Of a DNA stretch of 64,000 nucleotides, positions 30,727 to 40,881 are shown piece after piece. The notes under the pieces were generated by a model. That model was not told the origin of the DNA and searched no databases. It saw nothing but the letters and a program-made list of their open reading frames with translations. Position numbers and translations under genes: made by a program. Origin of the DNA: Mucilaginibacter sp. L294 (lineage in GTDB: Bacteria > Bacteroidota > Bacteroidia > Sphingobacteriales > Sphingobacteriaceae); assembly GCF_001636615.1 (NCBI RefSeq), contig NZ_LGEK01000018.1, positions 1 to 64,000 of the forward strand. The letters are read 5' to 3'. How positions within the stretch are numbered: position 1 is the first letter of the stretch; every line of letters begins with the position of its first letter.

Positions 30727-31689
30727 ATGGTTAGTTTATCTGAAAAACCGGTACAGGCAGTTTTTGTGATCCCCCCGAGGGTACACCTGCTGGATATTAC
30801 CGGCCCGGCCCACGTTTTTTACGAGGCAACCGATTACGGGGCCAATCTTAAACTGCATTTCTGTAATATACATACCCACGAGAATAGCATCCAAAGCAGC
30901 AGCAGTTTGTTCTTATCAAACCTGGTTGATTATAACGACCTGGAATTAACCCCAAACGACCTGGTTTTTGTACCGGGGCTGGAATCGTCCCTGCTGATGG
31001 ATGATGAATTTCTGGCCTCATCAAGGGCGTTTCAATACTGGTTAAAAAGGCAGCACGATAAAGGGGTTAAAATATGTTCGGTTTGTACCGGCGCATTCAT
31101 ACTGGCCGAAGCGGGCTTGCTGGATAATAAGGAATATACAACCCACTGGAAATTCATCGACAGGTTTCAAAGCCGTTTCCCGAAAGCATTATTGCAAAAG
31201 AACAGGCTGTTTGTAAAGGCCGGTAACATTTACACCAGTGCCGGGGTATCTTCGGGCATCGACTTGTCCCTGTACCTGTTAGAGGAGATGTTTGGATCGG
31301 GCTTTGCCGTAAAAATTGCCAAAGAGATAGTGGTGTACACCCGCCGAACTGAGCACGACCCGCAGTTGAGCGCCTTTATGCAATACCGCAATCACATCGA
31401 CGAACGCATCCATACCGTGCAAGACCTGCTGGCGCAATCGTTAGATAAAAAACTAAGTATCGGATATCTTGCCGAACAGGTGTTTATGAGCCCGCGTAAC
31501 TTAACCCGCCTCTTCCGCAAAACCACACAAACAAGTATAGGCGATTACCTGAATAAGCTCCGCGCCGAACGTTCTGCCCAAATGCTGGCCGATGGCTATA
31601 CTATGCAGGCCGTTACGCAAAGCTGTGGCCTTAAAAGCACCAACCAACTGCGATCTATCATGAAAAGTGCTACCATCGTGTCCCGATAA
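30727..31689 (+). CDS. GlxA family transcriptional regulator (DJ-1/PfpI plus AraC)
   Basis: 320 residues. Residues about 10-190 form a DJ-1/PfpI-like amidotransferase-fold domain with VCTGAFILAEAGLLDNKEYT around the elbow Cys; residues about 215-315 form an AraC-type DNA-binding domain with two helix-turn-helix units (LSIGYLAEQVFMSPRNLTRL and the second in MQAVTQSCGLKSTNQLRSIM). Regulators of this kind sense small nitrogenous ligands or stress. The next gene, 66 bases downstream, encodes a DJ-1/PfpI protein with the same VCTGAFIL-x-x-AGLLDN motif and is the likely target. Confidence 0.9.
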   Translation: MVSLSEKPVQAVFVIPPRVHLLDITGPAHVFYEATDYGANLKLHFCNIHTHENSIQSSSSLFLSNLVDYNDLELTPNDLVFVPGLESSLLMDDEFLASSRAFQYWLKRQHDKGVKICSVCTGAFILAEAGLLDNKEYTTHWKFIDRFQSRFPKALLQKNRLFVKAGNIYTSAGVSSGIDLSLYLLEEMFGSGFAVKIAKEIVVYTRRTEHDPQLSAFMQYRNHIDERIHTVQDLLAQSLDKKLSIGYLAEQVFMSPRNLTRLFRKTTQTSIGDYLNKLRAERSAQMLADGYTMQAVTQSCGLKSTNQLRSIMKSATIVSR

Positions 31690-31755
31690 TGCGCAAGGCT
31701 GGCTGTATTAAGTTATATGGCCGGGGTAGCTTTGCACACAAACTAAATTATCATC

Positions 31756-32580
31756 ATGAAAAGCATCATCTTTCTGCTTGTTATATGTGTGCAGGTTGTT
31801 GTGTTAACAAACCACCTGTCGGCACAAACAAAAAAGGCGACCCAAACCCAAAAGGCGCAACCCCAAAGTAGCTATTATTGCCCGCCCTGTGGCGATTGTG
31901 ATAAAACGGCCTATAAAGCCGCAGGTAAATGCCCGGTATGCGGTATGGAACTTGTAAAGCAAACCGTTGCAGAGCATAATAAAAACGACAAGCGTTTAAA
32001 AGTGGCCTTTTACCTGCAGGATGGGGTAGAGGTACTGGATTTTGCCGGGCCTATGGAAGTTTTTGCTTACGCGAATTTTGATATTTTTACGGTATCGGCA
32101 ACCAAAGATCAGATAAAATCGCAGGGGATCTTAAAAATAACACCCGATTATAGCATTGACGATGCCCCGCATGCCGATATCCTGGTGTTTTTTGGAGGTA
32201 ATGCAGGCACTGCGGCCACCAACCCCAAGGTTATTGATTGGGTGAAGAAACAGGCCGATGTTGATTATTACTTTTCCGTTTGTACCGGTGCATTTATATT
32301 GGGTAAAGCGGGCTTGCTTGATAACTTAACCGCTACCACTTTTCACTTAAGTATTGATGACTTGCAAAGGGAGATACCTAAGGCCAAAGTTTTAAAGAAT
32401 GTACGTTTTGTTGATAACGGAAAAGTAATAACCACGGCGGGTATATCCGCAGGGATTGATGGTGCCCTGCACCTTGTGGGAAAAATACGGGGCACTGAAA
32501 CCGCCAAACAAATTGCCGCCTATATGGAATATGATAAATGGGTGCCCGCGCAAGGGTTGGTTATTGCCCAGGCAGAGTAA
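31756..32580 (+). CDS. Secreted DJ-1/PfpI protein with N-terminal heavy-metal-binding domain
   Basis: 274 residues. Signal peptide IIFLLVICVQVVVLTNHLSAQ; then a small Cys-rich module YYCPPCGDCDKTAY followed by GKCPVCGMELVKQ (about residues 37-67), matching the heavy-metal-binding (HMBD/YHS-like) pattern in its second half; then a DJ-1/PfpI domain (KVAFYLQDGVEVLDFAGPME, FSVCTGAFILGKAGLLDNL). The putative nucleophile elbow Cys lies in SVCTGAF. The first half of the metal module has C-P-P-C-G-D-C in place of the common C-P-M-H-P. A TAGCTTTG box (31727-31734) upstream may give it its own promoter. A periplasmic metal- or stress-related role is inferred. Confidence 0.82.
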   Translation: MKSIIFLLVICVQVVVLTNHLSAQTKKATQTQKAQPQSSYYCPPCGDCDKTAYKAAGKCPVCGMELVKQTVAEHNKNDKRLKVAFYLQDGVEVLDFAGPMEVFAYANFDIFTVSATKDQIKSQGILKITPDYSIDDAPHADILVFFGGNAGTAATNPKVIDWVKKQADVDYYFSVCTGAFILGKAGLLDNLTATTFHLSIDDLQREIPKAKVLKNVRFVDNGKVITTAGISAGIDGALHLVGKIRGTETAKQIAAYMEYDKWVPAQGLVIAQAE

Positions 32581-32584
32581 TGCG

Positions 32585-33358
32585 TTAGCCCTTCTTTAAA
32601 AAACCATTTAAAGCATGCTGTGTAAATTCTGATAAGACCAGTTCGCCGCTAATGGCTGCGCGTTCGGTTAATAGCTGGTCCCAGTTTTCGGTTCCCTCCC
32701 AAAGGATCTGTTTGAGGCCTGCAAGCGCTTCGGGGTGGTAGGAGGCGAGTTTTTGGGTGAGGTTGGATAAACCCTCATCTAACGATGAGATATCGGCATA
32801 CACCTCGTTATACAGGCCTTTTTCCATTGCCCATGTAGCCGATTGAAAATCGACAGCACGAATAGTAAGTTGCGAAAAAGCCGGCAGCCCTATTTTACGG
32901 ATCACTGCGGGTGATATTACAAAGGGCCCTATACCTATAGCCAATTCGCTTAGTTTGATGGAGGCGGCCTCGGTAGCCAGCACGTAATCAGCACCGGCAG
33001 CAAGGCCCACACCACCGCCAACGGCTTTACCCTGCACACGGGCTATGATAATTTTTGACGATTTACGGCAGGCGTTGATCACATTGGCAAAACCCGAAAA
33101 GAATATGGCACCCGCTTCCTTATCTTTTATTTGCAACAGCTCATCAAAGCTTGCCCCGGCGCAAAAGGTGCGCTCGCCGGCGCTTTGCAGTACAATCACT
33201 TTAGTTTGCGGGTTATTGCCTGCTTCGTTTATCTTATCGGTTAAGGCTTGTAGTAAATGAGCAGGTAATGAGTTTTGCGCAGGGTGGTAAAAACCTATGG
33301 TAGCAACGCCATCGGCGCTGGTATTAAGCACTACATTTCCGTTTTGGGTATCGGTCAT
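32585..33358 (-). CDS. Enoyl-CoA hydratase/isomerase family protein
   Basis: 257 residues from ATG 33358. Crotonase fold: GVATIGFYHPAQNSLPAHLL, ERTFCAGASFDELLQI (oxyanion-hole AGA), and KAVGGGVGLAAGADYVLATE with the second oxyanion Gly. Glu/Asp catalytic positions near KLSELAIGIGPFVISPAV are partly altered, so dehydratase activity is uncertain. It acts on CoA thioesters in fatty-acid, branched-chain or aromatic catabolism. It lies on the same strand, 65 bases after the kinase gene of the kai operon, and could be read through, though no functional link is evident. The alternative in-frame start at 33385 is less likely. Confidence 0.83.
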   Translation of the reverse strand: MTDTQNGNVVLNTSADGVATIGFYHPAQNSLPAHLLQALTDKINEAGNNPQTKVIVLQSAGERTFCAGASFDELLQIKDKEAGAIFFSGFANVINACRKSSKIIIARVQGKAVGGGVGLAAGADYVLATEAASIKLSELAIGIGPFVISPAVIRKIGLPAFSQLTIRAVDFQSATWAMEKGLYNEVYADISSLDEGLSNLTQKLASYHPEALAGLKQILWEGTENWDQLLTERAAISGELVLSEFTQHALNGFLKKG

Positions 33359-33423
33359 TATTGGTTGGTATAAAATGCAGGGCAATATCCGAACTATTTA
33401 ACGTACCTGCAAATCGGGAGCGG

Positions 33424-35076
33424 TTATACCACCGGCAATTCAAAATAAAACGTAGCACCCTGGCCGGGTTCGCTTTCAACACCAATGGTGCCTTTGTGGT
33501 TGCTGATGATCTCGTTAGAGATGTAGAGGCCCATGCCCAGGCCGCTGGTCATGTTTTTTTTATCTTCTACCCGGTAAAAGCGTTCAAATATTTTGCTTTG
33601 CTGGTCTTTTGATAAACCGATACCATTATCATGCACAGACACCCTTACGTTGTCGCCATGCTTTTGCGTAGCTATGGTAACTATCTTATTGTTTTGCGAA
33701 TATTTTACGGCGTTATTTACCAGGTTCATGATCACCTGTTCCAATCGCTCGGCGTTGCCTTTAACGGTATAAGGCTGCTGCGGTTCATACTCAAAAATAT
33801 AGGCGGGGTATACATGCTCTGCATTTTCTATACATTGGCTTACCAGGTCGGTAATATTTAATTCAGTAATAGCGTATTCTAACCTGCCTGCTTTTATCTT
33901 GCTTACATCAAGTAAATCGTTTATCAGCGTTTGCAGTTTGTTAATAGATACCCCCGCTTTACCAATATATTGTTTAATTACCGGTGGTAATTCTTCCTTT
34001 TTATAACTGGCTATCAATTGTAAGTACCCTTTTAAACTGGTGAGTGGCGTTTTAAGCTCATGACTGGCAATACCAATAAACTCGTCTTTTCGGTCCATTT
34101 CCTGTTTCTGGTCTTCAATATCGGTAGCGGTACCTACCCAAAATATAATATCCCCGTTATCATTCTTTAACGGTTTTGAGCGGTTAAGGTGCCAGCGGTA
34201 AACATCATCGTGCCTGCGGTAGCGATTCTCTACCTCAAAAATATCGCCTGTTTTAAGGGATAATTCATATTTGGCAATGGTTTCTTTCAAGTCGTCTGGA
34301 TGGACAACCATGTGCCATTCAAAATCGGCTATATCGTCTTTACTCAGGCCGGTATAATCATACCAGCGCTGGTTAAATGAGTTAACTATCCCTGTGGGCA
34401 GGTTAGTCCAAGTCATTTGCAGTATGTTGTTGGTAAGCAGCTTAAAGTGCTCGCGACTGATCAGCAGATCGCCGGTGCGCTCTTTTACCGTTGCTTCCAG
34501 TGTGTTGTTCAGTTTTTCGGTATTCGCGCGCGATTCTTCCAGTTGCTCGTTACGTTGCTGTAGCTGCTTTTCGGTTTCTTTTAGTACGCTTAGGTCAGTA
34601 ATAATAATGCTTAATGCTATGCCGCTATCCAGCTCAATGGTATTGCATGAGAACATGCAATGCATATCCGCACCGCCACCATCTTTCAAGATAATTTCCT
34701 GCCTGCAATCTTCCTCCCAACTGTTGCATATCATTTCCCGCAGTTTATCTTTCGAGCTTTCGGGCACAAAAGATTCCAAAGGCATACCGATGGTTTTTTC
34801 CAATGGGGTAGCGGCCATATCTGCAAAGCGGGTATTGCAGTATAAAATAATACCATCACGGTTTATAGTGACAGCGCCTTCACTCATCTTTTCAATAAAA
34901 ACGCGGTAGGTTTGGTCGGCAGTTTTTAGGGTGTACAATTGATGGCCGGTATTGTCCTTTACAATAAGGGCATCAACCTGGCCTGTACGTATAGCGTTTA
35001 TCGTATCGTGCGCTTCCTCTAACTGGTAGCGCAATTCCTGTATCTCGTTTAAAAGATCTTTTGAATTTTGCTCCAT
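33424..35076 (-). CDS. PAS-domain sensor histidine kinase of the kai operon
   Basis: 550 residues, no transmembrane segment. The N-terminus has LNEIQELRYQLEEAHDTINA and IRTGQVDALIV, a helical signature frequent in kinases encoded beside kaiBC. A PAS domain covers about 52-165, a coiled coil 167-205, a second PAS (PAC-type) 207-325. HisKA has phospho-acceptor His339 in GIASHELKTPLTSL; the ATPase domain shows N-box NLVNNAVKYS (451-460), DNGIGLS (483-489) and GLGMGLYIS (512-520). It starts 3 bases after the second kaiB stop, so it is co-transcribed and probably carries the KaiBC output. Its cognate response regulator is not in this operon; the receiver at 40516 is a candidate. Confidence 0.92.
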   Translation of the reverse strand: MEQNSKDLLNEIQELRYQLEEAHDTINAIRTGQVDALIVKDNTGHQLYTLKTADQTYRVFIEKMSEGAVTINRDGIILYCNTRFADMAATPLEKTIGMPLESFVPESSKDKLREMICNSWEEDCRQEIILKDGGGADMHCMFSCNTIELDSGIALSIIITDLSVLKETEKQLQQRNEQLEESRANTEKLNNTLEATVKERTGDLLISREHFKLLTNNILQMTWTNLPTGIVNSFNQRWYDYTGLSKDDIADFEWHMVVHPDDLKETIAKYELSLKTGDIFEVENRYRRHDDVYRWHLNRSKPLKNDNGDIIFWVGTATDIEDQKQEMDRKDEFIGIASHELKTPLTSLKGYLQLIASYKKEELPPVIKQYIGKAGVSINKLQTLINDLLDVSKIKAGRLEYAITELNITDLVSQCIENAEHVYPAYIFEYEPQQPYTVKGNAERLEQVIMNLVNNAVKYSQNNKIVTIATQKHGDNVRVSVHDNGIGLSKDQQSKIFERFYRVEDKKNMTSGLGMGLYISNEIISNHKGTIGVESEPGQGATFYFELPVV

Positions 35077-35079
35077 AAT

Positions 35080-35403
35080 TTAACTGTTATTGGTAAGGCC
35101 AAGCCCCTTTAAAACCCTTTCGGTATCGCTCATGTCGCCTATCATCCTGCGTTCGGGGTAGGGCGATTTTTTGATCATTAAAGGTACTGCTATAACGTCC
35201 TCGCCTTCGGCGAGCTGCGGTTGCTGGTGTATATCTATAATCTCAAGCTGGTACCTGCCTTTAAGATACTCCTCGCAAATAGCCTTTGTGTTTTCTACCG
35301 CGCGGATAGAGTTAGGGGATGCCCCTGTTATAAATAAGCGTAACACATAAGGCTCGGCCCCGGTATCCTTATCGTATATGTCAAAAACTCCATCCTCGGC
35401 CAT
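35080..35403 (-). CDS. kaiB: KaiB-domain protein, second copy
   Basis: 107 residues with a ~15-residue acidic N-terminal extension (MAEDGVFDIYDKDTGAEP). The KaiB thioredoxin-like fold is shown by YVLRLFITGASPNSIRAVEN, LKGRYQLEIIDIHQQPQLAE and the end MIGDMSDTERVLKGLGL. KaiB binds the CI ring of KaiC and, in cyanobacteria, switches fold to do so. Compared with the first copy, this one has drifted at the proline-rich loop (SPYPERR). It lies 17 bases after kaiB copy 1 and 3 bases before the kinase gene. Confidence 0.93.
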   Translation of the reverse strand: MAEDGVFDIYDKDTGAEPYVLRLFITGASPNSIRAVENTKAICEEYLKGRYQLEIIDIHQQPQLAEGEDVIAVPLMIKKSPYPERRMIGDMSDTERVLKGLGLTNNS

Positions 35404-35420
35404 AACTAATATTTATACAA

Positions 35421-35711
35421 TTAAGCCGGGCGAATGTTTAAACCGACAAGCACCTTTTCTTCGTTGGATAGGTCACCTATTATCTTACGGATAGGCTCCG
35501 GAACCTTACGTACAAGTGTGGGGATGGCCAGTATCTGGTCGCCCTCAGCTAATTGTGGTTTTTCTAAAAGATCGATCACCTCAATACGGTACTGGCCTTT
35601 TAAATGTTCCTCACAATATTTTTTAAGGTTAGTTAGGGCGGTAACAGATTTTGGTGTTTTCCCTGCTACATACAACCTTAATTCCCATTTTTTATCTACT
35701 CGCTTTACCAT
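35421..35711 (-). CDS. kaiB: KaiB-domain protein, first copy
   Basis: 96 residues, closely following cyanobacterial Kai[61 protein letters not shown] and [12 protein letters not shown]. The I-I-G-D-L-S-N segment, where the fold-switching region begins, is intact. KaiB is a KaiC partner in the cytosol. Its ATG overlaps the kaiC stop by one base (TAATG), indicating translational coupling and matched levels. Confidence 0.95.
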
Positions 35712-37456
35712 TATTTTTTGTTGGATGTTTTTGGTTTTTCGGCTGTTTCGCCCCTTCTAAGCCTGGTAACCTCTGCACGGTTCTTGTCTAAAATGTGTTT
35801 CTTCAGTTCCTCTTCCAGGTAAACCTTGTTCAGTTCTTCCTCTACAGATTCAAACTCCGTATGGAGGCTGGCTATTTTAGCTTCCAATACAGTACGTTTG
35901 CGGATTATCTCCCTGTCTTTACGGTTTAAAGCATTGCTGCGGATGGCTTCGCCGGTTTGTTCAAGCAGTACCTGTTGTTCACGGGCAGATCCCGTCAGGA
36001 TACCATCAGGGCCCAGATAAACATCTATCAGGTTAAGGCCGGTATTGGTTATTACAAACTCGCGTACCTGGTTAGAGTGTTTCATTCCGCGCGATTTCAT
36101 GACGTATAAGCCACGGTTGCGTTCGCCGTTAAACTCAATATCACGCACCAGTATCCAGGCATCTACCAGTGATGATACGCCCTCGTCGGTTTGTTCGCTC
36201 ACAACGGTGTTTAAGGATAGCGCGGTAAACATTACCGAGATGCCCTCCTCCTGTAAAAAGTCTATCATCCGCACCAGCATATTCTTAACCTCGCTTACCG
36301 AGCCTATGTTGATGAAGTTGGTTATCGGGTCAATAACCACTACGCTTGGTTTATATTTCCTGATGCACTTGTGCATGGCTACCAGGTGCATTTCCAAGCC
36401 ATATAAGTTTGGCCTCGATGCGTTAAAAATTAGCAGCCCCTTATCAATATGTTTTTGCAGGTCTATCCCTATCGACCGCATGTTGCGGATGATCTGGCTT
36501 GGCGATTCTTCCATCGCAAAATACACGCACTTTTCTTTTCGGTTGCAGGATTCGTTTGCAAATGATGCCGCCAAACTGGTTTTGCCCGTACCCGCTGTAC
36601 CCGATACCAATACGCTGCCGCCACGGTAAAGGCCCAGGCCGCCAAGCATGTCATCAAGTCCCTTTACACCGGTAGATACTCGTTCTGTAGATACAGTGTT
36701 AGCCATTTTAAGTGACGTAACCGGCAGTACCGAAATGCCGTCCTCATCAATCAGGAAAGGATACTCATTGGTGCCATGCACTGTGCCGCGGTATTTTATA
36801 ACGCGTAGCCTGCGGGTAGTTATTTGGTTAACCACGCGGTTATCAAGCAGTATCACACAATCAGATACATACTCTTCCAATCCCTGGCGGGTTAATGAAT
36901 TGCCCTCGCCGCGCTCGCCGGTAATAATAGCGGTTACGCCTTTTTCTTTTAGCCATCCAAAAAGCCTGCGCAATTCCATACGCAAAACGGCCTGGTTGTT
37001 TAAACCCGAAAAAAGGTTCTCCAGCGTATCCAACACCACGCGTTTAGCGCCAATGCTGTCAATAGCATACCCTAAGCGGATAAATAAGCCTTCCAGGTCG
37101 TACTCGCCTGTTTCTTCTATCTCGCTGCGGTCAATATGTACGTGGTCTATTTTTAATTTCTTTTGTTCCTGTAGTTTCTTCAGGTCGAAACCGAGGGAAG
37201 CTACGTTCATAGCCAGTTCGTCGCTCTTTTCTTCAAAAGCCACAAAAACGCCGGGTTCGTTATACTGTACAGCACCGCGTACAATAAACTCTAACGACAT
37301 CAGGGTTTTACCGCAGCCGGCCTCGCCGCATATTAATGTTGGCCTGCCCAGGGGCAAACCGCCTTCTGTAATTTCATCAAGGCCCGTAATACCGGTTAAG
37401 GCTTTTGGTAAAGTACCATACAGTACAGGGGCTTTCTTTATTTGAGATTTACTCAT
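35711..37456 (-). CDS. kaiC: Circadian-clock-type ATPase KaiC
   Basis: 581 residues, with two RecA-like domains. [22 protein letters not shown], Walker A GEAGCGKT (44-51), catalytic Glu75-Glu76, and [13 protein letters not shown]: Walker A GTAGTGKT (286-293), Glu316-Glu317, and [10 protein letters not shown]. The autophosphorylation segment [10 protein letters not shown] (423-432) aligns with T426/S431/T432 of Synechococcus KaiC, so the dyad is Ser428-Ser429 and the neighbouring Thr is kept. About 60 residues beyond the 519-residue cyanobacterial length form a charged coiled coil (495-568). First gene of an operon kaiC-kaiB-kaiB-kinase; no kaiA is present. It is expected to be a hexameric ATPase/autokinase; true circadian function is not implied. 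Confidence 0.96.
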
Positions 37457-37824
37457 AGGTATTCGTTTTCAGTAATTTCATAAAAGTATAAATTATACCT
37501 TATTACGCAATAGTATTACCTGTAACAGGCTTTATTTATTCAGTTATGTTGTAAAGTATCCTCTAAAATTATTTCACCTTAACTGCGTAGGATTTTAATT
37601 GTTTGGATTTTAGCATATTATTTACAATTCATTTATAAAAAATAACCCTTGAATAAAAACTTTAACATTCATTTAATTCCGGGTGGTGGCAAAAGCTGTA
37701 TGATAATTTATTCAGATGTATTAGCTATAATCAATCATAAAATTTAATATTGTATTACAATCTACCCGACAGCATATATTTGCCAATACTTGTTGAAATA
37801 TATTTATGTTTTTCTGCCTGAATA
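37457..37824. promoter_or_regulatory. Divergent intergenic region between kaiC and the five-PAS kinase
   Basis: 368 AT-rich bases with no gene. On the plus strand, TATATTTG (37775-37782) with TTG at 37750-37752 makes a Bacteroidota-type promoter candidate 43 bases before the kinase ATG. On the minus strand a TATACTTTTA stretch just before kaiC is a weaker candidate. Shared control of both operons from this space is possible. Confidence 0.5.
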
Positions 37825-40458
37825 ATGAAAAGCAACATTCACCCCGACGCGGAAAGCGAAAACGTATTTAAAATCATCATAGAGCAGTCGCCCTCGCCGG
37901 TTGGCCTTTATGTGGGGCGCGATATTGTGATAACGCTGGCCAATGATGCCATTTTAAAAGTATGGGATAAGGATAAAAGCATTATAGGTAAAACCTTTAG
38001 GCAGGCACTGCCCGAGTTGGAAGGCCAACCCTTTTTTGACCTGCTTGACAAAGTTTTTGCAACAGGCATAGCATACGAAGCCTACGCCGAACGGGTAGAC
38101 CTGCTGATAAGCGGGCAAATGCAAACCTTTTACTTCAATTTTATATATAAGCCACTAAAAAACGCTAATGGCGAGGTGTGGGGGATACTGAACACCGCCG
38201 ACGATGTTACCGAACTGGTGCTCACCCGAAAAAAGTTAGCCGAGGCCGAGGAACGCTCGCGCTTTGCACTTGATTCGGCAGAGTTAGGTGCGTGGGACAT
38301 GGACCCGGAAAACGAACGCGTTACCTGGGACGAACGTTGTAACCAACTGCATGGTTTTACCGAGGGTGAAGTAACCGTTTATAGCGATGTTTTAAAACAC
38401 ATCCACCCGGATGATCTGCAAAATATAACACAAAAGGTACAAAAAGCGCTTACCCCCGGGGGCGATGCTTATTACGACGAAACTTTTCGGATTATTTGCC
38501 CAAGCAGCACCAGGGTAAGGTGGCTGCGCAGCAAAGGCAAGGCTTATTTTAACGAGAAGGGGCAGTGTGTGCGCTTTGCGGGTACCACGCAGGATATTAC
38601 CGCCGAGATACGGGATAAGGAAGAACAGCGTAAGCTGATAACCCTGGTTGATCATACATCCGATTTTATAAGCCTCTCTGACCTTGACGGTAACGTTAGC
38701 TACGTAAATACTGCCGGCCGTAAAATGATGGGGATAGACGATGATGCCGAATTACCGCATAATTCGGAGTTTATTATGCCCGGAGAAAAGGATAAGTTGA
38801 AAAATGAGATAAACAAATCGCTGCAAACAACAGGCAAGTGGAGCGGCGAGATCCTTTACCGTAACTTTAAAACCGGCGAAGCTATCCTCGTTATGGGTAC
38901 AACCATGCTGATAGACGACCCAACCGGAAAACCGCAAGGCAGGGCAACCATAGCACGCGACCTGCGCGCCGAGATCGCAAACAAACAGGCATTGATAGAT
39001 AGCGAGCATTTGCTGCAAAATATAACCAGCGCATCGCCTACAGCGCTTTGGATGGCTGATGATAACGGCATGATAACCTACGCCAATAAAACCTGGACAG
39101 ACTGGACAGGGCAACCCACTAAAGATTTATTAGGTACAGGATGGCTGCATTGCATTTTGCCCGAAGACCGGGCCCGCGCAGCCGAAAAGTTTTTGATAGA
39201 CCTGAAAGCGCAAAAGCCGTACGAAGTTGATTTCAGGATCAGGCGCAAAAGTGGTGAGATCCGCTGGTGCATTGCCACCGGCCATCCACAGTATAACCAC
39301 GAGGGTAAATTTATGGGTTATATAGGCGCCTGTACTGATGTTACCGAAAAAACCATTACCGATATTGAGCTTCAGTTAAAGAACGGCGAACTTAACGACC
39401 AGATAAGGCAGTTTGAGTTTGTGACCGATTTTATGCCCGTACAACTCTGGACAGCTAAAACAAGCGGCGAACTGGATTATGTGAATAAGCAAACCATCGA
39501 TTTTTTTGGTTTGCCAATGGAAGCTGTTATTGGTGAAAAATGGATAAATAACGTACACCCGGATGACCGGCCCGGCTGCATCAACGCCTGGACAGCGGCT
39601 TTACAGAGCGGCACACTTTACCAGTACGAATTTAGGCTATGTGATAAAAAAGGCGAATATAAATGGCACCTTGCCCGCGCCCTGCCTTTTATAAACGATG
39701 GCGAGATAGTAAGATGGTTTGGTACCAATACCGATATTGACGAACAAAAACAAATGCAGCGCCAAAAAGATGATTTCTTGGGCATTGCCAGCCACGAGTT
39801 AAAAACACCGGTAACCAGTATAAAAGCCTACGCACAGGTGCTTGGCGCTATGCTGAGCAACGAGGGGGAAGAAAAGAAGGCGCAGATGGTGATGAAGATG
39901 GATGCGCAGCTAAACCGCCTCACCAACCTGATAGGCGATTTACTTGATGTTACCAAAATAAACTCGGGCCGGATACTGTTTAACAAGGTTTGGTTCGATT
40001 TTAATAAGGCTGTAGAAGAGTGTGTGCAGGATCTGCAACATACTACCAACAAGCACATACTGGTGATGGATTTTAAAGAAACAGGGAAGGTGTACTCAGA
40101 TAAGGAGCGGATAGGGCAGGTAATGACCAACCTGATCAGCAACGCGGTTAAATATTCGCCACACTCCAACCGAATCATCATTAGTACCGAGCGTGAGGAA
40201 AATATGGTTACTGTTTGCGTGGAAGATTTTGGTATAGGGATCCCCGACGATAAAAAAGAAAAGGTGTTTGAACAGTTTTACCGGGTAAGCGGCAGCAAGC
40301 AGCATACCTTCCCCGGTTTGGGGCTGGGGTTATACATTTCAAACGAGATCATCCGCCGCGAAGGGGGTAGGATGTGGGTAAACAGCACAGAAGGTAAAGG
40401 GTCTACTTTTTGCTTTTCGTTACCGGTTGCCGAAGTTAAAGAGCCCGAAGCAAAATAA
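37825..40458 (+). CDS. Multi-PAS sensor histidine kinase
   Basis: 877 residues, cytosolic, with five PAS-type domains (about 13-130, 143-260, 268-385, 392-508 and 524-640), recognisable by repeated GEIRW/EVRW-like strands and closing TDVTE/TDIDEQ motifs. The kinase core has His657 in FLGIASHELKTPVTS, N-box NLISNAVKYS (769-778), DFGIGIP (801-807) and GLGLGLYIS (831-839). It senses small-molecule, redox or light signals through the PAS domains; ligands are unknown. It is divergent from kaiC and is followed, after 57 bases, by a receiver gene. Confidence 0.92.
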   Translation: MKSNIHPDAESENVFKIIIEQSPSPVGLYVGRDIVITLANDAILKVWDKDKSIIGKTFRQALPELEGQPFFDLLDKVFATGIAYEAYAERVDLLISGQMQTFYFNFIYKPLKNANGEVWGILNTADDVTELVLTRKKLAEAEERSRFALDSAELGAWDMDPENERVTWDERCNQLHGFTEGEVTVYSDVLKHIHPDDLQNITQKVQKALTPGGDAYYDETFRIICPSSTRVRWLRSKGKAYFNEKGQCVRFAGTTQDITAEIRDKEEQRKLITLVDHTSDFISLSDLDGNVSYVNTAGRKMMGIDDDAELPHNSEFIMPGEKDKLKNEINKSLQTTGKWSGEILYRNFKTGEAILVMGTTMLIDDPTGKPQGRATIARDLRAEIANKQALIDSEHLLQNITSASPTALWMADDNGMITYANKTWTDWTGQPTKDLLGTGWLHCILPEDRARAAEKFLIDLKAQKPYEVDFRIRRKSGEIRWCIATGHPQYNHEGKFMGYIGACTDVTEKTITDIELQLKNGELNDQIRQFEFVTDFMPVQLWTAKTSGELDYVNKQTIDFFGLPMEAVIGEKWINNVHPDDRPGCINAWTAALQSGTLYQYEFRLCDKKGEYKWHLARALPFINDGEIVRWFGTNTDIDEQKQMQRQKDDFLGIASHELKTPVTSIKAYAQVLGAMLSNEGEEKKAQMVMKMDAQLNRLTNLIGDLLDVTKINSGRILFNKVWFDFNKAVEECVQDLQHTTNKHILVMDFKETGKVYSDKERIGQVMTNLISNAVKYSPHSNRIIISTEREENMVTVCVEDFGIGIPDDKKEKVFEQFYRVSGSKQHTFPGLGLGLYISNEIIRREGGRMWVNSTEGKGSTFCFSLPVAEVKEPEAK

Positions 40459-40515
40459 TTATTTAATAATCAGTTAAACTTGTACGCGGTTTTGTATTCA
40501 AAACTGTATAGTAAA

Positions 40516-40881
40516 ATGAGCCGGATACCGAAAAAAATAATGATAGCTGATGACGACCCCGGGATAGTGGACGCTGTAGAAATGCTGCTCGAATTTGAGG
40601 GCTACACCGTAACTTCAACCGTGGATGGCTCTACCGTGCTTGATATGAAGGATGAACTGCCCGACCTGCTTTTACTTGATATATGGATGAGCGGCGAAGA
40701 TGGCCGCGATATTTGCCGCCAGTTAAAAGCAACCCAGGCCACCAAAAATATCCCCGTGATCATGGTATCGGCCAGCAGGGATATTGAGCAATCGGCTATA
40801 GACGCCGGTGCCGACGATTTTTTAGCCAAGCCATTTGAGATGGATGAGCTGCTGGCGAAAATTGCAAAGTTGACGCGATAA
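40516..40881 (+). CDS. Single-domain response regulator
   Basis: 121 residues from ATG 40516. Receiver domain with acidic pocket IADDD (10-14), phospho-acceptor Asp55 in LLLLDIWMSG, the Ser in IMVSAS and the Lys in FLAKPFE. There is no output domain, so it likely relays phosphate or acts by protein contact. It follows the multi-PAS kinase gene and is the probable partner of that kinase and possibly of the kai-operon kinase. The longer start at 40480 precedes a non-conserved stretch. Confidence 0.92.
   Translation: MSRIPKKIMIADDDPGIVDAVEMLLEFEGYTVTSTVDGSTVLDMKDELPDLLLLDIWMSGEDGRDICRQLKATQATKNIPVIMVSASRDIEQSAIDAGADDFLAKPFEMDELLAKIAKLTR

Follow-up and report, generated by a model that had tools for sequence, protein, structure and literature searches.

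A conserved N-terminal module, linked to KaiB, on the kinase of a KaiA-less kaiC-kaiB-kaiB operon in Mucilaginibacter

The soluble kinase of the cyanobacterial SasA-RpaA system uses a KaiB-like element to read KaiC. Here we analyse a kaiC-kaiB-kaiB-kinase operon of Mucilaginibacter sp. L294, found within positions 1 to 64,000 of contig NZ_LGEK01000018.1 (a stretch of 64,000 nucleotides, hereafter the window), and in particular the N-terminal module of its histidine kinase, HK1. The KaiC of Rhodobacter (Cereibacter) sphaeroides type, as described in the sections of PMC10076222 used here, forms a dodecamer through its C-terminal extension, autophosphorylates without KaiA and belongs to an hourglass driven by the ATP/ADP ratio. 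Part of PMC5520375 notes Bacteroidetes as encoding solely KaiB2/KaiC2-like proteins. According to one portion of PMC3164672, kinases or GGDEF/EAL proteins stand behind almost all non-cyanobacterial kaiC-kaiB clusters, and such downstream kinases are suggested there as Kai partners; excerpts of two further papers place a PAS kinase behind kaiC-kaiB in Rhodopseudomonas palustris (PMC4794148) and mention a PAS protein in the kai operon of Cereibacter sphaeroides (PMC6627678). Since these three papers give it, the gene order kaiC-kaiB-kinase is already known; what is new here is the N-terminal module of HK1, its linkage to KaiB and its exchanged outputs. A shared reader module of Kai-linked kinases was not found described in the portions of the open-access literature searched.

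We propose, with a probability of roughly 0.6, that the operon encodes a KaiA-independent timer or energy-state sensor of KaiC2 type with an output kinase of its own, in which the N-terminal module (N-module) and first PAS domain of HK1 would form the head that reads the state of the Kai proteins. The parts of the operon are as follows (window positions).

35711-37456, minus strand: kaiC, 581 amino acids, KaiC2 type (SS phosphosites, long C-terminal extension)
36170-36175, minus strand: kaiC codons S428/S429, the phosphosite pair, aligning with S413/S414 of R. sphaeroides KaiC
35714-35974, minus strand: KaiC C-terminal extension, residues 495-581, by alignment with 8dba the equivalent of the hexamer-joining coiled coil of R. 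sphaeroides
35421-35711, minus strand: kaiBa, Pfam KaiB 99 bits, the slowly evolving KaiB
35080-35403, minus strand: kaiBb, Pfam KaiB 87 bits, the second, faster-evolving KaiB
33424-35076, minus strand: HK1, 550 amino acids, N-module, PAS, PAS, HisKA and HATPase (Pfam)
34861-35058, minus strand: N-module query region of HK1, residues 7-72 (alignment A1), of which residues 7-57 are the pre-PAS stretch
34582-34905, minus strand: first PAS of HK1, residues 58-165 (Pfam PAS_4/PAS_9; PAS/LOV matches in Foldseek)
33430-34089, minus strand: kinase core of HK1, residues 330-549 (Pfam HisKA and HATPase_c)

The N-module is a segment of about 50 residues, a helix and a hairpin, ahead of a PAS domain, and HK1 residues 7-72 match 0 families in Pfam and 0 in NCBIfam. 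A PDB profile search with the module returned weak coiled-coil-like matches only (best E 0.024), and Foldseek on the module model gave generic PAS/LOV folds, the first PAS being placed among LOV and haem PAS sensors. In the HK1 model (pLDDT 83, 66 sequences), a helix at residues 2-31 is followed by a hairpin at 36-49, of low confidence, and then by the PAS. Conservation of HK1 across the operons peaks near its start: the commonest residue has a mean frequency of 0.73-0.75 over residues 26-75 and of 0.32-0.54 in blocks of 25 residues within the kinase core. Four module residues are invariant, namely L19, G32, D35 and R58. Alignment A1 omits L072 and L074, whose called start cuts the module, near-duplicates, and 6 of the 56 listed references (L049, L052, L055, L057, L068, L081); L and G numbers denote loci and genomes throughout. 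Across 70 Bacteroidota loci, compared in 2209 pairs whose KaiCs are 60-80% identical (L049 and L069 left out; alignment A4), the median identity is 59% for the module, 45% for the PAS, 31% for the kinase core and 71% for KaiC. Within 25 genomes including that of the window the module stands at 75%, the two PAS domains at 68% and 70% and the core at 70%. The control in the same 25 genomes, the neighbouring kinase HK2 described below, has the reverse of this pattern, with a core (84%) more conserved than its PAS domains (52-68%).

The module occurs in 32 genomes, 19 of 296 evenly drawn Bacteroidota and 13 of 294 from the archaeal phylum of Methanoperedens, and each of them has a copy beside KaiB. 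All 19 Bacteroidota carry a single copy, on the same contig as KaiB and 39-292 bases from it; 11 of them have two adjacent KaiBs and 8 have one. KaiB is itself uncommon in the phylum (27 of the 296 genomes), and at E<=0.001 the module is found in 0 of the 269 KaiB-less genomes (p=5e-24). In each of the 13 archaea a copy lies 41-122 bases from a full-length KaiB, and 0 of the 277 archaeal genomes without full-length KaiB have the module at E<=0.001 (p=2e-19). Full-length here means more than 60 bits (17 genomes); 22 archaeal genomes pass the standard cut-off and 73 match KaiB at E<=0.001, those beyond the full-length set being short partial matches. The archaeal KaiB operons were read in 12 of the 17 genomes and, as L073, in a thirteenth, G413; G552, G613, G668 and G683 were placed by coordinates alone. 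Across kaiC and divergent from it, a second module protein is present in L201:1782-5141 (G506) and in L202 (G532), where the module lies upstream of the start of the open reading frame as called.

The same linkage is seen on plasmids. In 13 of the 14 records that HK1 residues 7-161 matched among 72,556 plasmids, KaiB lies directly upstream. The other record (Natronococcus, L172) matches through the PAS part and has no Kai gene annotated in the stretch shown. With the C. sphaeroides module as query the same 13 records were recovered, 13/13 with KaiB directly upstream. Five of the 18 KaiB-bearing plasmids are without the module, and all five have KaiBs of 36-44% identity. One module copy each was found in 15 genomes behind the loci.

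Behind this head, the catalytic part changes. Pfam recognises HisKA and HATPase in the window and in L010, L017, L018, L048, L053, L069, L076, L090, L093 and L105; an HWE_HK core in L167 (Cereibacter), L169 (Rhizobium BG4) and L170 (Falsirhodobacter); HisKA_2 in L073, L075 and L204 to L207; and a hybrid HisKA-HATPase-receiver kinase in L168 (Pararhizobium), L072 and L074. In the kaiC-kaiB loci L098 and L100 of one Bacteroidota genus (g48), the module and PAS are followed by an HD_5/HD domain with, by eye, an HD-GYP look, and this HD-type protein is a possible Kai-to-c-di-GMP output. In both proteins of L201 and in that of L202 the HATPase comes with no dimerisation domain that Pfam recognises, and for one of the two tandem module proteins of L203 Pfam found no kinase domain. 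The front end of HK1 probably reads the state of the timer, because in the genomes searched it is found beside KaiB genes of bacteria and archaea on several different output enzymes.

One archaeal protein joins the two elements in a single chain. L199:4182-6104, from G623, encodes 640 residues comprising a KaiB domain (residues 11-91), a degenerate module (117-172, 27 bits), two PAS domains, HisKA and HATPase. This SasA-like layout suggests, at the level of domain architecture, a joint function of KaiB and the module kinase. The contig of the fusion is 2.9 Mb long, the 9 kb read around the fusion contain no kaiC, and the ordinary kaiC-kaiB-kaiB-module-kinase operon of the same genome (L200) is about 0.7 Mb away. 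The taxonomic order of G623 was surveyed in 232 genomes, 46 of which have KaiB over the cut-off, and KaiB falls inside a frame of more than 300 residues in G623, G885 and G887. The last two were rejected as further KaiB-kinase fusions, both being alternative frames through kaiC.

The operon itself is tightly built and widely conserved. kaiC and kaiBa overlap by 1 base, the following gaps are 17 and 3 bases, and HK1, the N-module protein, starts 3 bases past kaiBb, directly downstream; this packing, and the domains and places of the six genes that an earlier note on this DNA had described, are borne out by the gene calls, by Pfam and by measurement. Of 80 related loci, 78 have two KaiBs behind kaiC (L060 has one, L072 three) and 79 have an N-module protein, the contig of L012 ending after kaiBb; for these two reasons the arrangement is not due to chance. 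These loci are the best 80 of 547 KaiC matches, so the sample leans to close relatives. Within the genus, KaiB is present in 81 of 120 genomes (80 over the cut-off), and the four-gene core is intact in all 58 KaiBC loci fetched, from 58 of the 81 KaiB-positive genomes. That the core order is unusual finds no support: it recurs throughout Bacteroidota and among archaea of Methanoperedens type, and the C. sphaeroides operon runs kaiC-kaiB-kinase. In the archaeal loci L072-L075 the operon KaiC is 63-66% identical to that of the window, which suggests transfer of the operon between domains of life, although these are metagenome-assembled genomes (MAGs), in which binning errors are possible. No receiver gene directly follows HK1 at this locus. 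A receiver gene, by weak match, lies directly after the operon kinase in Flavobacterium and several Chitinophagaceae (L062-L065, L067, L076-L082, L084 and L085, among others).

KaiC belongs with the R. sphaeroides type. It scores 736 bits with NCBIfam NF006799, above the cut-off of 408, and 355 bits with TIGR02655 (circ_KaiC), below the cut-off of 546. The closest solved structures, 8dba (E 1e-187), 8fwi and 8db3, are all of R. sphaeroides KaiC, and KaiCs of other origin reach 4e-103 or weaker. Both 8dba and 8fwi align to query residue 550 and thereby cover much of the C-terminal extension. S428/S429 align with the Ser-Ser pair for which the phosphomimetic chain 8fwi has Glu-Glu. As the earlier note had it, the key residues are kept: both Walker A motifs, both catalytic EE pairs and the pair S428/S429, in two ATPase stretches recognised by Pfam. 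The eight commonest motif variants account for 69 of 86 KaiCs compared (67 SS, 2 AS), and the 86 extend 68-96 residues beyond the GILTGSAR position; the nearest relatives are those of Mucilaginibacter rigui (94% identity) and M. terrigena (92%). The source genome (5.25 Mb, 285 contigs, 99.95% complete) holds two KaiBs, both in the operon, and one copy of the HK1 N-module. As noted before, KaiA is absent, with 0 matches to PF07688 in the whole genome in a search whose control was positive in Synechococcus elongatus alone. The marks of a canonical cyanobacterial KaiABC system, KaiA and a KaiC over the circ_KaiC cut-off, are thus lacking, and those of the R. sphaeroides-type hourglass, two serine phosphosites, a C-terminal extension (~50 residues) and KaiB without KaiA, are all present. 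We are highly confident that the operon is a KaiC2-type, KaiA-independent KaiBC system with a dedicated kinase.

The two KaiBs differ in their rate of change. Median identity over the same 2209 locus pairs is 75% for KaiBa and 51% for KaiBb; alignment A3 leaves out six loci in which genes are short or split. The triple proline, which part of PMC11551320 ties in KaiB to slow fold switching, is kept in 79/79 KaiBa and 72/79 KaiBb, and both proteins of the window keep all three prolines. The KaiBb model (pLDDT 73) has the fold-switched, thioredoxin-like state, with 4kun, 5jyt, 5jwo and 8fwj as its best structural matches; as a single model it says nothing on fold populations. In a KaiB tree of 72 rows and 108 columns, the 27 non-archaeal a copies, including one of a MAG titled Williamsia, cluster together with weak support; this cluster adjoins the C. 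sphaeroides KaiB and the archaeal a copies in a grouping that is also weakly supported, and the b copies fall outside it and are more divergent. Since few forks are supported, we take no more from this tree than the clustering of the a copies and their slower evolution. Pararhizobium and nine archaeal operons (G413, G482, G506, G517, G532, G551, G623, G657, G711) likewise have a module kinase behind two KaiBs, and archaeal L212-L215 have one KaiB and a module of 23-55 bits. KaiBb cannot be the sole partner of the module, because single-KaiB operons carry the module too. Two Mucilaginibacter loci, L165 and L166 (G335, G405), hold an extra lone KaiB beside kinase or receiver genes; the stretch read there contains no kaiC.

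On the other side of kaiC lie the following (window positions).

37457-37824, no strand assigned: kaiC-HK2 intergenic region, 368 bases
37825-40458, plus strand: HK2, 877 amino acids, PAS in each of five segments, HisKA and HATPase (Pfam by segment)
40516-40881, plus strand: lone receiver, partner of HK2, Pfam Response_reg (open reading frame 40480-40881, ATG at 40516 the likelier start by eye)

The 368-base divergent spacing is as first described. A promoter scan of this region found fewer sigma-70-like sites than in shuffles, with a consensus that is unsuited to Bacteroidota. Neither HK1 nor HK2 has a membrane-spanning-looking segment (top 19-residue mean hydropathy 1.56 and 1.23, respectively). 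On the other flank, an enoyl-CoA-hydratase-like gene (32585-33385) lies downstream of HK1 on the same strand and is kept behind the operon in at least 33 of the 58 congeneric loci; we treat it as a local neighbour because it is found in just 5 of the 80 wider loci, all five Mucilaginibacter. Within positions 30727-32580, a regulator with DJ-1/PfpI and AraC-type domains precedes a second protein that looks DJ-1/PfpI-like by eye.

The earlier note had read the locus as a two-kinase wiring, in which both soluble kinases and the receiver at 40516 would read the same KaiC and HK2 would signal to that receiver. The larger kinase does accompany the operon in part of the genus: it lies divergent from kaiC in 25 of the 58 congeneric loci, nearly always adjacent (a gene intervenes in L125). 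A related receiver is likewise present in 25 loci, of which three lack HK2. The absence of a receiver behind HK1 here would leave room for such a scheme. HK2 is, moreover, somewhat commoner where KaiB is present. Orthologues at E<=1e-200 occur in 40 of 120 congeneric genomes, 29/81 with KaiB and 11/39 without (36% vs 28%; Fisher p=0.54). Because that threshold missed HK2-like neighbours in G214, G314, G395 and G403, the search was redone at 1e-120, giving 54 of 120, 39/81 with KaiB and 15/39 without (48% vs 38%; p=0.34); at about 1e-180 the counts are 32/81 and 12/39 (p=0.42). The odds ratio is 1.4-1.5 towards KaiB genomes over all cut-offs and is not significant (p=0.54 to 0.32), so that co-occurrence in 120 congeneric genomes gives no significant support for a functional link between HK2 and Kai. 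Furthermore, the N-module was not found in HK2, which has an ordinary conservation pattern, and its receiver still adjoins it in the KaiB-less loci L183, L184 and L185 and, unlinked to kaiBC, in L186 (G375). Since the receiver stays beside HK2 without Kai genes or unlinked to them, the two are probably an independent cognate two-component pair that neighbours Kai in part of the genus. HK2 and its receiver were rejected as Kai parts on these grounds; a six-gene wiring is very unlikely, and membership of the pair in the Kai system is highly improbable. Co-occurrence in related genomes, set beforehand as the test of the proposal, accordingly separates the two kinases: HK1 stays with the operon (79/80 loci), HK2 shows no significant co-occurrence, and the claim that soluble kinases of the same operon read the state of KaiC probably holds for HK1 and is unsupported for HK2.

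For HK1 itself, the direction of signalling could be the opposite one, its PAS domains sensing a ligand or redox state and the head altering KaiC or KaiB. Two PAS domains, the first grouped by Foldseek with LOV and haem sensors, would suit such an input; the catalytic part, however, has been swapped for quite different signalling outputs while the head stays, so that a reader with exchangeable outputs fits better, and we regard the input role as distinctly unlikely. A simpler view is that the module is a mere dimerising signal helix with a PAS cap, linked to KaiB through block inheritance or transfer of the operon. A long helix and hairpin beside a PAS are what the model gives, and operons seem to have moved between distant lineages, as the 63-66% identical Methanoperedens-type KaiCs indicate. 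Yet a generic helix would be expected in unrelated kinases as well, where the genomes without KaiB (0/269) or full-length KaiB (0/277) have none, and the head is kept between lineages whose catalytic domains differ and is more conserved than they are; this view is unlikely, though to be taken seriously. That KaiBC is no daily timer but an integrator of growth or stress through ATP/ADP has close to even odds. The patchy distribution of KaiB (81/120 in the genus, 27/296 in the phylum) and the response of the hourglass KaiC2 system to ATP/ADP (PMC10076222, in the part used) favour it, but it overlaps with our own reading, which covers a timer or an energy-state sensor.

Several observations weigh against a KaiA-independent timer or sensor read by the head of HK1. 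Eight of the 27 KaiB-bearing Bacteroidota are without the module (G005, G014, G078, G087, G177, G184, G217, G259), those of G177 and G217 being partial KaiB matches only, the latter at a contig end; L177 and L180 pair a KaiC2-like KaiC (710-715 bits) with KaiB and have no module kinase in the stretch read. Four of the 17 archaea with full-length KaiB lack it too (G445, G455, G465, G706). In 4 of the 13 module-bearing archaea there is a second copy, in tandem in G517, on the opposite strand some 2.4 kb away from KaiB in G506 and G532, and in the fusion of G623. Single-KaiB operons with the module (C. sphaeroides, 8/19 Bacteroidota, archaeal L212-L215) speak against KaiBb as the only partner of the module, and the KaiB-kinase fusion stands as a single case, because those of G885 and G887 are alternative kaiC frames. 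The module model is of low confidence at residues 31-60. A divergent, unlinked module may escape detection, because the profile was trained on kai-linked copies, and genes that travel as one operon co-occur without physical contact.

With these points taken into account, HK1 is likely a signalling partner of KaiBC, and direct reading of Kai through the N-module with KaiBb as preferred adaptor has slightly less than even odds. By analogy with the R. sphaeroides homologue, KaiC would form a double hexamer joined by coiled coils and autophosphorylate at S428/S429 without KaiA; together with KaiB, it would answer shifts in the ATP/ADP ratio with a slow cycle of phosphorylation that has to be set going from outside every time, like an hourglass. 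The comparative data suggest that the N-module and first PAS of HK1 may dock on the KaiB-KaiC assembly and control the kinase joined to them. Where an operon has two KaiBs, KaiBb would be the likelier coupling partner, a separate-subunit counterpart of the KaiB-like domain that SasA carries in cis. Different lineages have joined different outputs to the same head, and HK2 with its receiver would be an independent two-component pair next door. It is conceivable, at somewhat less than even odds, that the N-module and PAS are a reader domain common to bacteria and archaea that couples KaiA-less timers to exchangeable outputs, with the second KaiB as dedicated adaptor. KaiBb and HK1 might then be a split SasA-like protein, of which the archaeal KaiB-module-kinase fusion would be the joined form, and the outputs might comprise HisKA, HWE and HisKA_2 phosphorelays, hybrid kinases and HD-type proteins (probably c-di-GMP).

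The kinase output is untreated in the parts of the R. sphaeroides structural work used here (PMC10076222), in whose main text the terms 'histidine kinase', 'operon' and 'SasA' have 0 occurrences. Should the N-module be the reader, signal output from the best-studied primordial timer would become testable at once, because C. sphaeroides 2.4.1 has such a kinase directly after a KaiB that has already been purified. The module would also serve as a sequence marker by which output-bearing KaiBC systems could be found in uncultured bacteria and archaea, and would illustrate how a single sensing head can be coupled to several unrelated output enzymes.

Among the described systems are the Bacteroidetes KaiB2/KaiC2 proteins of PMC5520375; section 14 of that paper leaves the two-KaiB order and the linked kinase untreated. 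The clusters of PMC3164672 share the gene order of our locus but differ in that section 17 makes no mention of a shared N-module; the 'Nt_HK' family described in the same source, with a KaiB-like N-terminal domain and kaiC genes without kaiB, is unlike HK1. The closest match is plasmid pB of C. sphaeroides 2.4.1, with the order kaiC (WP_011331300), kaiB (WP_002725098) and HWE kinase (WP_011331301, module 48 bits); WP_002725098.1 is the KaiB named in the methods of PMC10076222, in the part seen. Like our operon it has a KaiC2-type KaiC with SS sites and a coiled-coil extension, no KaiA, and a kinase with the same N-module directly after kaiC-kaiB; unlike it, it has one KaiB rather than two and an HWE rather than a HisKA core. 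SasA has its nearest likeness here in the archaeal fusion, a KaiB domain joined to a kinase. The Mucilaginibacter locus departs from the cyanobacterial arrangement, as was first thought, in having no KaiA and, because both KaiBs sit in the operon, no SasA-type kinase with a KaiB domain found in the genome: HK1 is without that domain, and the presumed reader head is a helix-hairpin-PAS element encoded inside the kai operon itself.

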